A stretch of 64,000 bases of DNA. Origin: Halorubrum rutilum (GTDB taxonomy: Archaea; Halobacteriota; Halobacteria; Halobacteriales; Haloferacaceae). Each line of letters opens with the position of its first letter. Position 1 is the first letter of the stretch. The position numbers and the translations under genes were made by a program. The stretch lies in assembly GCF_024494565.1 (NCBI RefSeq), contig NZ_JANHDN010000001.1, positions 310,001-374,000 on the forward strand, written 5' to 3'. The notes beneath the pieces are model-generated. The model ran no database searches. It was not told the origin of the DNA and saw only the letters and a list, made by a program, of their open reading frames with translations. Positions 9,910-54,676 of this stretch are shown piece after piece.

Positions 9910-10240
9910 GAACTCTTCCAAAGCCCCGGCCGGGAGGACTCGATGCGCTCGCTGTCGTTCGAGACGCCGAAGGCGTCTCGTGACGACGAAACGGCTTCGC
10001 CGTTTCGAACCACGGTCCTCGTCGCTCACTCCGTTCGCGCCTGCGGTCCTTGCGTCGCGCGTCTTCGTCCTCCCGACTGCCCCTTTGAGTCCCACCCGAC
10101 CGCAACCGCACCGCAGCCTCACACCTCCCCAACCTCGTCGCTGGCGCCGTCGGTGCCAGCGACTCCCTCGCGCGGCGCTCCTTCGCGGCCGCCACCGGCG
10201 GCCGCTCGGAGGCGCGCGCCACCGCGTTCAGTTATAAATA
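9910..10240 (-). repeat. Structured intergenic element, copy A (candidate RNA)
   Basis: One of five related elements in the window, reading right to left. It has a TATA-like tatttataac at the 5' end (10231-10240), GGCGCGCGCC at 10220-10211, the fixed block TGGGGAGGTGTGAGG, the fixed block GGGACTCAAAGGGGCAG, and the 3' arm ending GGCTTTGG. The long terminal helix pairs 10067-10087 with 9918-9939. Its apical region is enlarged with two extra perfect hairpins (gagacgcc/ggcgtctc and gaaacggc/gccgtttc). It fills the gap between the zinc-ribbon gene and hemC and contains no credible protein; ORFs here are artefacts of the repeat. Confidence 0.8.
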
Positions 10241-21746: not shown

Positions 21747-22014
21747 AACACTTCCAAAGCCCCAGCCGGGAGGACTCGATGGGCTCGCTGCGCTCCTCAG
21801 TCGCTCGTTTCACTCGCTCCCTGCGGTGCTTGCGTCGCCCGTCTTCGTCCTCCCGGCTGCCCCTTTGAGTCCCGCCCGACACGGCGACCGCACCTCACGC
21901 CTCCCCAACCTCGCGGCTCCCTCCGCTTCGCTCCGGTCGCCGCGTCCCTCGCGCGTGCACCTCGCGCCCTGCGAGCGCTCGGCGGCACGCGCCACCGCCC
22001 CGTTTATTTATAAG
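21747..22014 (-). repeat. Structured intergenic element, copy B (candidate RNA)
   Basis: It reads right to left: AT box cttataaataaa (22002-22014), GGCGCGTGCC (21993-21984) pairing with GCACGCGC further on, a variable hairpin, the block TGGGGAGGCGTGAGG, the block GGGACTCAAAGGGGCAG, and the long terminal helix pairing 21847-21867 with 21754-21775 (AGCCGGGAGGAC with GTCCTCCCGGCT, outer CAAAG with CTTTG). It occupies the gap between the small acidic gene and the primase gene. ORFs within it are artefacts. Confidence 0.82.
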
Positions 22015-26954: not shown

Positions 26955-27228
26955 TATTTATATATAGATCTGCGGCGGCGCGTGCCTCCGAGCGGGCCAT
27001 CGGCCCGCGAGGAGCACCGCGCGAGGGACGCGGTGAGCGCTCGGAGAGCGCGAACCGCGAGGCTGGGGAGGTGTGAGGTGCGGTTGCGGTGCGGTCGGGT
27101 GGGACTCAAAGGGGCAGCCGCGAGGACGAAGCACGGCGCAGTAAGCACTACAGGGAGCGAGCGTAGCGAGCGACCGAAGCGCGCAGCAAGCCGCGCGAGT
27201 CCTCGCGGCTGGGGCTTTGGAGGTGTTC
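26955..27228 (+). repeat. Structured intergenic element, copy C (candidate RNA)
   Basis: It reads left to right: AT box tatttatatata (26955-26966), GGCGCGTGCC (26977-26986), a variable hairpin with arms CGCGGT and ACCGCG, the block TGGGGAGGTGTGAGG, the block GGGACTCAAAGGGGCAG, and the terminal helix pairing 27107-27127 with 27199-27220. The core of that helix is AGCCGCGAGGAC with GTCCTCGCGGCT. Copy B has GGG/CCC where this copy has GCG/CGC, a compensatory change. The outer CAAAG/CTTTG pair is unchanged. Confidence 0.85.
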
Positions 27229-31337: not shown

Positions 31338-31456
31338 ATCTCGTGTCATGTCGCTTCGCGGGGGTCGCGATAGTCGCGTCGCTCACCGAGTGTCGGTCGC
31401 GTCGCGCTCCCGATACGTCGCTCACCGCGTTCGCTGCGCGCCGTTTCCGGTCTCGG

Positions 31457-50957: not shown

Positions 50958-51764
50958 ATGGCATCCCTTCGGGACCTGGGGCTCTCCGAGTACGAGGCGC
51001 GCGCCTACCGCGCGCTGTTGCGCACCGGACCGACGACGGCGAAGGACCTCTCGCGGGCCAGCGAGGTCCCCATGGGACGGGTGTACGACGTGCTCAACAG
51101 CTTAGAGCAGCACAGCCTCGTCCGGAGTCAGGCCGCCAGCCGGCCGAAGAAGTACGCGGCGGTCGAGCCCGACGCGGCGCTCGACCGGCTGTTAGAGGAG
51201 AAGAAGCGGGAGCTGGAGACGCGGGCGGAGCAGTACGAGGAGGTCGTCGCCGACCTCTCGACCGAGCTCGACGCGGGGGAACCGGTCGACGGCCAGTTCT
51301 GGACCGCGGCGGTCGGCGCGGAGGAGGCGACGGACCTCCTCTTGGAGCGGATCGCGGCCGCCGAGCGCCGGATGGTGGTGGTCGTCGGCGCGCCGGCGAC
51401 CGGCTTCGACCTCGGCACGATCGGCGAGCAGGTCGCCGCCGAGCTGGAGTCGGCGCTCGACCGCGGCGTCGAGATCCGGGTGTTGCTGTCGCCGGAGACC
51501 GTCGACGCGCTCCCGCGGAGCGTCGGCCGGCGCTACACCGCGGAGCTGTCGGACAAGGCGGGGTTCGAGGTCCGAACCACTTCGGGCGTCGACGGGACGT
51601 TCAACGTCTTCGACGGGATCGAGGTGTGCATCGAGGTGCCGCATCCGCTCTCGGGCGACGAGCCGTTCGCGATGATCGACGTGAAGGACGCGGAGTTCGC
51701 GACGAGCGTGAGCGAGGAGTTCGAGCCGCGGTGGACGGAGGCGGAACCGCTGTCGTTCGGGTGA
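50958..51764 (+). CDS. TrmB-family transcriptional regulator
   Basis: A 268-residue sugar-sensing type regulator. The N-terminal winged helix (LGLSEYEARAYRALLRTGPTT, ASEVPMGRVYDVLNSLEQ) is followed by a coiled-coil segment (LDRLLEEKKRELETRAEQYEEV) and a C-terminal phospholipase D-like effector domain (TDLLLERIAAAERRMVVVVG, VEIRVLLSPETV). The long TrmB sugar-binding extension is absent, as in the short haloarchaeal members. Ligand unknown. Monocistronic; element copy D follows directly. Confidence 0.9.
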   Translation: MASLRDLGLSEYEARAYRALLRTGPTTAKDLSRASEVPMGRVYDVLNSLEQHSLVRSQAASRPKKYAAVEPDAALDRLLEEKKRELETRAEQYEEVVADLSTELDAGEPVDGQFWTAAVGAEEATDLLLERIAAAERRMVVVVGAPATGFDLGTIGEQVAAELESALDRGVEIRVLLSPETVDALPRSVGRRYTAELSDKAGFEVRTTSGVDGTFNVFDGIEVCIEVPHPLSGDEPFAMIDVKDAEFATSVSEEFEPRWTEAEPLSFG

Positions 51765-51845
51765 GATCGATCCGTTCGATATTCGCTGACACACGCTGAG
51801 CCGACCTCGGCCAGCGGAGACGCGGCAGCGAGCGACGGCGGTGAC

Positions 51846-52127
51846 TATTTATAAACAACGACGCGGTCGGCGCGTGCCGGTGAGCGCCGCAACGCGGCGC
51901 GAGCCGCACGCGCGAGGGAGCCCGCGGCCGCCGCCGGCGGCCGCGGCGAGGCTGGGGAGGTGTGAGGCTGCGGTTGCGGTGCGGTCCGGGTGGGACTCAA
52001 AGGGGCAGCCGCGAGGACTGCGCAGGCGACGCCAAGCACCGCAACGAGGAAGCGAACAGAGTGAGCGACCGAGTGAGGAGCGCAGCGAGCGTGCGCAGTC
52101 CTCGCGGCTGGGGCTTTGGCGGTGTTC
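51846..52127 (+). repeat. Structured intergenic element, copy D (candidate RNA)
   Basis: It reads left to right: AT box tatttataaa (51846-51855), GGCGCGTGCC (51869-51878) pairing with GCACGCGC, a hairpin with arms CCGCGGCCGCC and GGCGGCCGCGG, the blocks TGGGGAGGTGTGAGG and GGGACTCAAAGGGGCAG, and the longest terminal helix of the family, 51998-52024 with 52092-52119 (core AGCCGCGAGGACTGCGCA plus the outer CAAAG/CTTTG). The G-run opposite G-run between them stays as an internal loop in every copy. No credible protein is encoded. Confidence 0.86.
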
Positions 52128-52303
52128 ACCGGCAATCCAGTATCAATCAGTTATAAGCGAGCGGCTGGGGCTTTGGCGGTGTTCACCGGCAATCCAGTAT
52201 CAATCAGTTATAAGCGAGCGGCTGGGGCTTTGGCGGTGTTCACCGGCAATCCAGTGGCGACCGCGTACAACCGAGCGGCTGGGGCTTCGGCGGCGTTCGC
52301 TAC
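52104..52303 (+). repeat. 57-base tandem array of the element's 3' end
   Basis: Units begin at 52104, 52161, 52218 and 52275 with a 57-base period; the first is the true 3' end of copy D, the next two are almost identical, the last is partial and diverged. Each unit holds gcggctggggctttggcggt, gttcaccggcaatccag, and a spacer ending ttataagcga (the third has cgtacaaccga instead). Repeats of the 3' end only, with TTATAA at each junction, suggest serial additions of 5'-truncated copies. Confidence 0.85.
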
Positions 52304-52377
52304 AGAGTGGGCGACTCGATCTGATCGAGCGGTTAGAGCGTTCGAGGGTCGTTCGGTGAACGGGTATCTGGCTGCGT

Positions 52378-53307
52378 CTAGCGCGCGTTCAGTTCGGTCC
52401 GCAGGTCGCCCATCGTGACCTCGCGCTCGGCGTGGGCGTTGTGCTGGTGGATCGACTCGTCGTTCGACTGTTTCATGCGGATCACGGCGTCGTCCGGTAG
52501 GTGGTCGAACTCCTCGATCGTCCCCTCGGCGAGCGCGCGGACGCAGTCCTCGACGAACTTCGCGTCGGCGTGGGCCTCGTAGGTCATGTGGTCCTCGTCC
52601 GGCCGCTTCGCCATGTTGTAGATCCGCGCGCTCATCGAGTCGCGGGCGACGTCGATGAGGTCGCGCAGGTCGATGTCGGGGTGGCCGTCGGTGGTCACGG
52701 TGAGCGTCGCGTGACCGCGCTGGGAGTGGCCCGGCTGCGGGACGGCGTCCAAGAACTCCTCGGTCGTCTCCTCGTCGACGCCGAGCTCGGCGAGCTTCTC
52801 GCGGGCGCGGGACTCGCTCATCCCCTGCGAGCAGGGACAGACGGTCATGCCGGTGACCTCCGCGCCGATCTCCTCGCGGGTGCCGTCCTCCGTCGCGGTC
52901 GCGCTGGCGATGATGGTCGACGTGCTCTGCGTCTCGATCCCGGACGCCGGCGTGTCCTCGCGGGTGACGAGCTCCGCGGTCATCGACACCTCGGCGGTGG
53001 TGGTGTAGTCGTGCTTCTCTAAGAGCCGCTCGGCGGCGTCCCCGCAGACGTCCTCGACGCGGTACGCCTCCTCGCGGGTGATCTCCTCTAGGATCTCGTC
53101 GATCGTCGCGAGGTTCCGCGACATGTCGATCCCCTTGCGGCCGCTCGGGAGGTCGACGAACACCTCGAACTCGGCCATGAGGACGATGGGACGGCGATCC
53201 CCCCGGGCGAGCTTGACGAGCTTCTCCACGCCGGTGACGCCGACCTGTGAGAGCCCGACCGTGACGTCGGGCGCCGACGCCTGTACGTCCGGCAGCTGAT
53301 GACTCAT
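52378..53307 (-). CDS. mptA: GTP cyclohydrolase MptA (archaeal GTP cyclohydrolase IV)
   Basis: It opens GTP to 7,8-dihydroneopterin 2',3'-cyclic phosphate, the first step to the archaeal pterins and folates. The 309-residue protein shows the FolE2/MptA pattern: [19 protein letters not shown] N-terminus, [23 protein letters not shown], the metal/active-site [22 protein letters not shown], and the end [15 protein letters not shown] with conserved His residues. The ATG at 53307 is chosen over one three codons upstream by family fit and TATA spacing (ctaatc about 28 bases upstream). Antisense to the right flank of the copy D array. Confidence 0.92.
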
Positions 53308-54410: not shown

Positions 54411-54676
54411 GAACATCGCCAAAGCCCCAGCCGCGCTCGACTCCCACAGCTCGCTGCGGTCCTCGGTCGCTACGCTCCCTGCGGTCCTTGCGTCGCTGGG
54501 GTTCGTCGAGCGCGGCTGCCCCTTTGAGTCCCGCCCGACCGCTCCGCACAGCGCCTCACGCCTCCCCAGCCTCGTCGGTGGTCCTCCGCGTTGCTCCGGA
54601 CCACCGACTCCCTCGCGCGTGCGGTTCGCGGCCTACCGGCCGCTCACCGGCACGCGCCACCGCGTTTTTTGATCGG
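54411..54676 (-). repeat. Structured intergenic element, copy E (candidate RNA)
   Basis: It reads right to left: a weak AT stretch (54662-54672), GGCGCGTGCC pairing with GCACGCGC, a perfect 11-bp hairpin GTCGGTGGTCC / GGACCACCGAC, the blocks TGGGGAGGCGTGAGG and GGGACTCAAAGGGGCAG, and the terminal helix 54505-54526 with 54419-54441. That helix is AGCCGCGCTCGAC with GTCGAGCGCGGCT, a different sequence from copies B, C and D but equally complementary. It separates rpoF from the eIF-2B-like gene. Confidence 0.84.

Follow-up and report, generated by a model that had tools for sequence, protein, structure and literature searches.

A dispersed, structured element of Halorubrum with a covarying fold and a 3′ hairpin domain found across Halobacteria

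The window, which is the whole 64,000-nucleotide stretch of Halorubrum rutilum DNA analysed here, contains a structured element in five copies. Copy D, the starting point of the analysis, spans 51863–52121 on the + strand (5′ domain 51863–52008, H3 domain 51992–52120) and is neighboured by a TrmB-family gene and a FolE2-type GTP cyclohydrolase gene. It has TTTATAAA directly upstream (51848–51855, +), and its 3′ end is repeated in 3.4 tandem units of 57 bp containing TTATAA (52104–52298, +). The other copies, located like copy D with sequence and covariance models, are copy A (9917–10225, −; 5′ domain 10077–10225, H3 domain 9917–10093), copy B (21753–21998, −; 21857–21998 and 21753–21873), copy C (26972–27221, +; 26972–27117 and 27101–27221) and copy E (54418–54663, −; 54516–54663 and 54418–54532), so that two copies have + and three have − orientation. 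The sequence-only reading had described five copies sharing fixed blocks in a constant order, and the pattern GGGGAGGYGTGAG-N12..40-GACTCAAAGGGG indeed gave five matches in the window and none in 100 dinucleotide shuffles. All five were also recovered by cmsearch (E 2e-19 to 8e-27) with R1, a covariance model of the 5′ domain having 143 positions and 25 pairs, for which 32 copies, including three of the window, had been used. The description as a five-copy element holds for the window share only, as the core has 151 matches in one related genome. The flanks of two window copies match a locus of Halorubrum sp. SD626R (L071) at 93–97%. By our own gene caller, genes overlapped 4 of 113 copies, and no transposase gene was found in the element, the cores of 196–523 nt being too short for one; the element is without a protein of its own.

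The architecture of the element is that of two domains, a 5′ domain with helices H1 and H2 and a 3′ domain formed by H3, and all three helices were found as the earlier reading had described them, H3 being longer than noted. Read from 5′ to 3′, TTTATAAA often comes first, followed by GCGGTGGCGCG, which opens H1, a helix interrupted by a bulged C and by an internal loop of tandem G-A. GAGGGA lies between the opening of H1 and hairpin H2, whose arms vary among many copies, and CGAGGCTGGGGAGGYGTGAGG together with a variable G-rich linker separates H2 from H3. H3 is bounded by GGGACTCAAAGGGGC at its opening and GGGGCTTTGG at its close; the AGCC..GGCT core noted earlier is enclosed by a further, outer helix (CTCAAAG/CTTTGG), which is separated from a 13-pair helix by a near-invariant GGG/GGG internal loop, and the inside of H3 holds several short helices in series around AAGCACCGCA/GAGGAGCGCAG.

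The core length was 196–519 nt among 115 copies and 238–523 nt among 63 copies of H. xinjiangense (G001). Several copies carry double-hairpin insertions in their loops, as in the H3 of copy A (9953–10013, −; ends approximate, from hand-counted coordinates). Such modules also occur in L004, L017, L019, L023, L029 and L119, with similar letters recurring in different copies, and may themselves be small mobile repeats. At L125, L127, L131, L135, L140 and L142 (genomes G101 and G142) there is a 5′-domain-like part without a recognisable adjoining H3, and three of these (L127, L131 and L140) continue into GCGGTTGCTGT-like repeats. One to four tandem 57-bp units lie 3′ of 54 of the 63 G001 copies examined, which is a lower bound since the flanks end. 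These units hold TTTATAA, repeat the 3′ end of the element and are alike within one array; L128 and L136 have tandem 3′ ends with other periods. With the 57-bp units considered as candidate alternative partners of H3, the arm of a copy agreed with its first tandem unit in 33 of 49 cases (shuffled mean 24.7; 2 of 1000 shuffles as high), which fits local duplication.

The core GGGACTCAAAGGGGC, with up to one mismatch, was found 151 times in the 3.3-Mb genome of H. xinjiangense, 82 times forward and 69 times reverse, and the reversed control gave 0. A pattern scan of GTDB contigs matched at least 120 stretches, and among the matches listed (80 stretches) all were from Halorubrum except one MAG, uncultured archaeon A07HR67. 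The search of Halobacteria genomes with covariance models, which the earlier reading had suggested, showed a dispersed family with a nearly class-wide 3′ domain. With 26 candidates scored per genome, H3 (model R2, 112 positions, E ≤ 1e-3) was present in 125 of the 145 Halobacteria genomes, its copy number ranging from 1 to at least 26, and the 5′ domain (R1) in 41 of 145; in eight genomes with weaker matches, R1 at E ≤ 0.01 gave 7 to 83 copies. In a draw of 196 genomes from the phylum, 29 genomes matched, all of them already in the Halobacteria draw (G001–G032), and none of the genomes first drawn in the phylum sample did. Using L121 as query, 53 plasmid records matched at E ≤ 0.01, and the matches listed include Halobaculum, Natrinema, Natronorubrum, Haladaptatus, Halopiger, Halobacterium sp. 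DL1, Salinigranum and Haloarcula. No match was obtained in an IMG/VR pattern scan of viral contigs or among the phages of INPHARED, and on this basis a viral origin was rejected.

In Halorubrum, H3 is joined to the 5′ domain, and two other arrangements of H3 were observed in the class. A second unit at E ≤ 1e-5 was found in 11 of 22 class-search loci (within L163–L191), and all 11 pairs are head-to-head (L163, L172, L174, L177–L180, L183, L184, L187 and L190), with a spacing of 29–34 bp in 8 of them and a GCCGGCTGACCAACCGGC-like palindrome in the gap of several. Genomes G036 and G080 also have such pairs, seven among 35 matches and four among 21, respectively. In the other arrangement, H3 lies upstream of a gene for an RPA-like OB-fold protein. 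This was seen at 6 of the 10 plasmid loci examined, which came from the L121 search and two sister searches (one of the ten is unannotated), and, in genomes with few copies, at 5 of 29 loci. When the search was made gene-first, H3 (E < 1e-7) was found at 17 of the best 30 RPA-like loci, two of the 17 being identical, and in all 17 it is divergent from the gene with its near edge 434–598 bp upstream. The gene, coding for about 290 aa, occurs at L153, L155, L156, L157, L159, L161 and most of L237–L266; its product matched OB-fold models below the cut-off and solved OB-fold proteins, the best being 2kbn. The conserved noncoding region of about 450 bp between the gene and H3, whose motif is present in 31 of 33 loci examined, is probably structured and possibly a separate large RNA. 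R1 matched this region weakly on both strands (best E 0.0016), and a 5′ domain common to it and the Halorubrum copies, which inspection by eye had suggested, found no support. The RPA-like protein as a necessary partner likewise found no support, as the copy-rich G001, G012, G039, G111 and G133, with at least 26 H3 copies each, have no strong member (best OB-fold family E about 1e-12), although plasmids may be missing from the assemblies. Because R1 is absent at the RPA loci and a strong member may be missing even where copies are many, the link between H3 and this gene is treated as a lead only.

The claim that the arms vary while the pairing stays was tested with many more copies and holds as covariation both within Halorubrum and across Halobacteria. 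When 124 copies from 100 sources were aligned to R1, changes on both sides were found in 19 of the 25 H1/H2 pairs, and 88.8% of the H1/H2 cells were pairing, against 74.1% (sd 0.5) in shuffled and 23–45% in slid alignments; the pairing of H2 is understated because about a quarter of its rows are shifted by one base. For H3, 28 sequences from several families, three from the window and the others from other haloarchaea, showed compensatory changes in 27 of 32 pairs, with 92.8% of the cells pairing against 71.0% shuffled and 32–45% slid. A set of 65 matches fitted to the H3 model, a procedure that favours the model and in which three matches repeat training sequences, gave 26 of 32 double-changed pairs and 94.3% pairing cells. 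The outer H3 helix, which in Halorubrum is CTCAAAG/CTTTGG, reads CTGAAAG/CTTTC in others, GAACG/CGTTC at L128 and L154 and GCAAG/CTTGC at L219, and GCACC/GGAGC changes to GGACC/GGACC. The unpaired loops are near-invariant across Halobacteria.

The strand that folds was approached through the balance of G-U and A-C. The anchored, alignment-free counts in Halorubrum were 30 G-U to 9 A-C for H3 and 9 to 0 for H2, adding up to 39 to 9 (p 2e-5); H1 (11 to 8) was left out of the sum because letters are fixed by the anchor used for it and the inner positions are out of register. The class-wide anchored count for H3 was 15 to 7 (p 0.13, not significant), and these p values are optimistic because the rows are related. 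In the MAFFT alignment A6 with hand-written pairs the count was 20 to 11. Model-aligned counts, which depend on the fitting, were 74 to 69 overall in A4 (H1 61 to 18; H2 13 to 51, with about a quarter of the rows shifted by one) and 51 to 19 class-wide in A7. G-U counts made on folds chosen by RNAalifold are biased, as G-U was favoured on either strand at the RPA loci (171 to 43 on one and 138 to 31 on the other), and the A7 count was therefore not used as evidence. The excess of G-U over A-C in the H3 and H2 arms of Halorubrum suggests that the sense strand is probably the one that folds and, together with the covariation, supports the earlier claim of selection on a folded strand. G-T is milder than A-C in DNA too, and the excess is therefore no proof of RNA.

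The occupation of orthologous sites was compared among genomes. The first neighbour gene of copy D was matched in all 15 genomes with strong R1 matches, and the partner-gene anchor was within 1.2 kb in 10 of the 15 and not found in five. Among these 10, the site is filled in five (L195, L196, L198, L200 and L205), has only 60–109 nt in four (L194, L197, L199 and L201) and has 1.1 kb without the element in L193; the L196 copy is without H3, which is missing between GGGGC repeats. The window also has an element-free site at 31348–31456 (strand not applicable), and its orthologous loci L018 and L114 are filled. Among locus pairs, which were chosen for having an element, 16 of the 17 with an element on both sides had it in the same position and orientation, and in one (L032/L085) it was inverted in place; four further pairs, not all of them resolved, had no recognised element on one side. 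One flank is shared in inverse orientation by L099/L082, L021/L069 and L017/L046. For a MITE, terminal inverted repeats shared with a transposon and a target duplication would be expected; by eye, some 5′ and 3′ flanks resembled each other when one was inverted, and some of the U-versus-D matches are orthologous flanks. Orthologous copies vary in their arms. No transposase was found and, as far as the junctions of filled and empty sites could be followed, neither a target-site duplication nor a precise end of the element.

Genes around the copies were found in all four orientations (44 convergent, then 28, 23 and 18 of 113, by our own gene caller), and for want of a fixed orientation a riboswitch, leader or terminator was rejected. 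Convergent gaps are over-used, at 39% against 19% of large element-free gaps. A TATA-like hexamer lies at −45 to −12 in 72 of 122 copies, the corresponding numbers for more distant upstream windows being 3, 1 and 16; it mostly starts 15–18 nt before GGTSGCG and recurs near +31 and +88 downstream. The distance from TATA box to start is usually about 26 nt in archaea, so that a start set by the upstream box would fall within H1, after its 5′ arm, and the hexamer may therefore mark an insertion preference and not a promoter.

The earlier reading could match the element to no named RNA family, and Rfam 15 likewise gave 0 window matches at gathering score, which speaks against a known Rfam RNA. An Rfam scan of 51700–52400 at E ≤ 10 returned only HSR-omega_2 on the other strand (13.4 bits against 55), a chance-like match, and four matches at five plasmid loci included none on H3. 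The TnpB reRNAs (sotRNAs) of haloarchaea, being structured RNAs linked to mobile elements, bear comparison with the element; unlike them, the element matches no Rfam family and does not lie at tnpB ends, and this class was rejected on the finding of a single TnpB RuvC-III-like motif, searched with a pattern of our own, in 327 sources (1.62 Mb). L153:4505–4700 comes close to the gathering score of Rfam sot2652 (59.6 bits against 61), and this TnpB-linked RNA is separate from the element. The REP, ERIC, BOX and Correia sequences are high-copy intergenic repeats of bacteria that can fold; the present element differs in being archaeal, in its two domains and G-rich internal loop and in its nearly class-wide 3′ domain.

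Likeness is also seen with the PATEs (palindrome-associated transposable elements) of Haloquadratum walsbyi, which are transposase-free, palindromic and heterogeneous, number 177–194 per strain, are tied to IS605-type ends and undergo core deletions between direct repeats (PMC3119063). Halorubrum lacusprofundi also has PATEs, one of them, of 489 bp, strongly expressed (PMC10544981). The element shares with them the haloarchaeal host, the absence of a transposase, palindromes, heterogeneity, high copy number and a core deletion between direct repeats, but PATEs have IS605-type ends, whereas only the one TnpB-like motif was found around the element copies. In the parts of the PATE literature consulted, no report of class-wide covariation over a whole fold was found. 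The SMR repeats of Haloquadratum, of about 110 bp and with mobilisation unknown, resemble the element in occurring in opposite orientation at one site, according to a supplement caption. The SMR-A repeats have terminal inverted repeats, insert into PATEs and are commonly more than 95% alike within a type (PMC3119063), whereas the element copies diverge yet keep their fold. No description of the element was found in the portion of the literature covered by our searches, sequence strings included. It could be among the 22 conserved halobacterial sRNAs reported without function, as far as that account goes (PMC7002113), and a knockout system has been reported for H. lacusprofundi (PMC5052560).

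Taken together, the copies are best read, at a probability of about 0.55, as a non-autonomous mobile element that is dispersed in Halorubrum and its relatives and in which selection keeps the fold of one strand, as RNA or as single-stranded DNA. The mobile part is suggested by the 151 core matches, the polymorphic presence at orthologous sites, the one apparent in-place inversion and the tandem units; as 16 of 17 site pairs agree in position and orientation, movement would be slow or old. The folded strand would be recognised by a trans-acting protein, with the AAGCAC/GCGCAG loop and the G-rich internal loop of H3 as its probable contacts, and this protein would move or maintain the element, the class-wide H3 hairpin serving as the putative recognition module. 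Against mobility, neither a transposase nor a target-site duplication nor a precise end came to light, presence and absence could come from loss, as with the missing H3 of L196, and so strong a structural constraint is unusual for a parasite; against the part on the strand fold, the counts are weaker outside Halorubrum (class-wide, A6 and A4). More tentatively, H3 may be a new module, class-wide in haloarchaea and made either of RNA or of folded single-stranded DNA, whose G-rich loop is read by a protein; SINE-like derivatives in Halorubrum would have spread it to about 150 places in one genome, and the RPA-like loci would hold the parental RNP.

The same data bear on three other explanations. 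A cellular family of non-coding RNA genes, each copy giving an RNA of about 250 nt that works in an RNP and the copies having grown by duplication, would account for the wide occurrence of H3, the sense-strand G-U excess in Halorubrum, the tandem G-A internal loops, the hexamer near the 5′ end and the divergent H3 upstream of the RPA-like gene. It is rather unlikely, because the hexamer is too close for a start ahead of the 5′ arm of H1, the roughly 31 bp between head-to-head units would be too little for two promoters, and presence varies between genomes. We are equally doubtful of a folded single-stranded DNA element, either a non-autonomous IS200/IS605 relative (PATE) or an RPA or replication signal, with the hairpin recognised on one strand. 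Strand-specific folding is expected of single-stranded DNA as well, H3 adjoins the RPA-like gene (six times on named plasmids) and forms head-to-head hairpin pairs, and transposase-free, palindromic PATEs are on record from Haloquadratum in high number and from H. lacusprofundi; the scarcity of TnpB motifs, the copy-rich genomes without a strong OB-fold member (best E 1.9e-12 in G001, with the reservation about plasmids given above) and the silence of the consulted PATE reports on whole-fold covariation speak against it. Least credible by far is that no selection acts and palindromes are kept alike through template switching and gene conversion between copies. Inverted-repeat conversion, which the sequence-only reading had named as a possible refutation, does agree with arms and whole hairpins that vary among orthologous copies and turn up again elsewhere, with tandem units alike within an array and with the non-significant class-wide strand counts. 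However, it leaves the near-invariant unpaired loops and the compensatory pairs between families unexplained, and it should give equal G-T and A-C, unlike the 39 to 9 of Halorubrum.

The favoured reading of a mobile element with a selected fold thus concerns a covarying structure that is present in 125 of 145 sampled Halobacteria genomes, belongs to no Rfam family and reaches 151 core matches in one genome. If it acts as folded DNA, it would represent a new kind of substrate, specific to one strand and connected with RPA-like proteins. If it is RNA, few structured RNAs in archaea would be repeated as often, and RNP-driven mobility in archaea would become testable.
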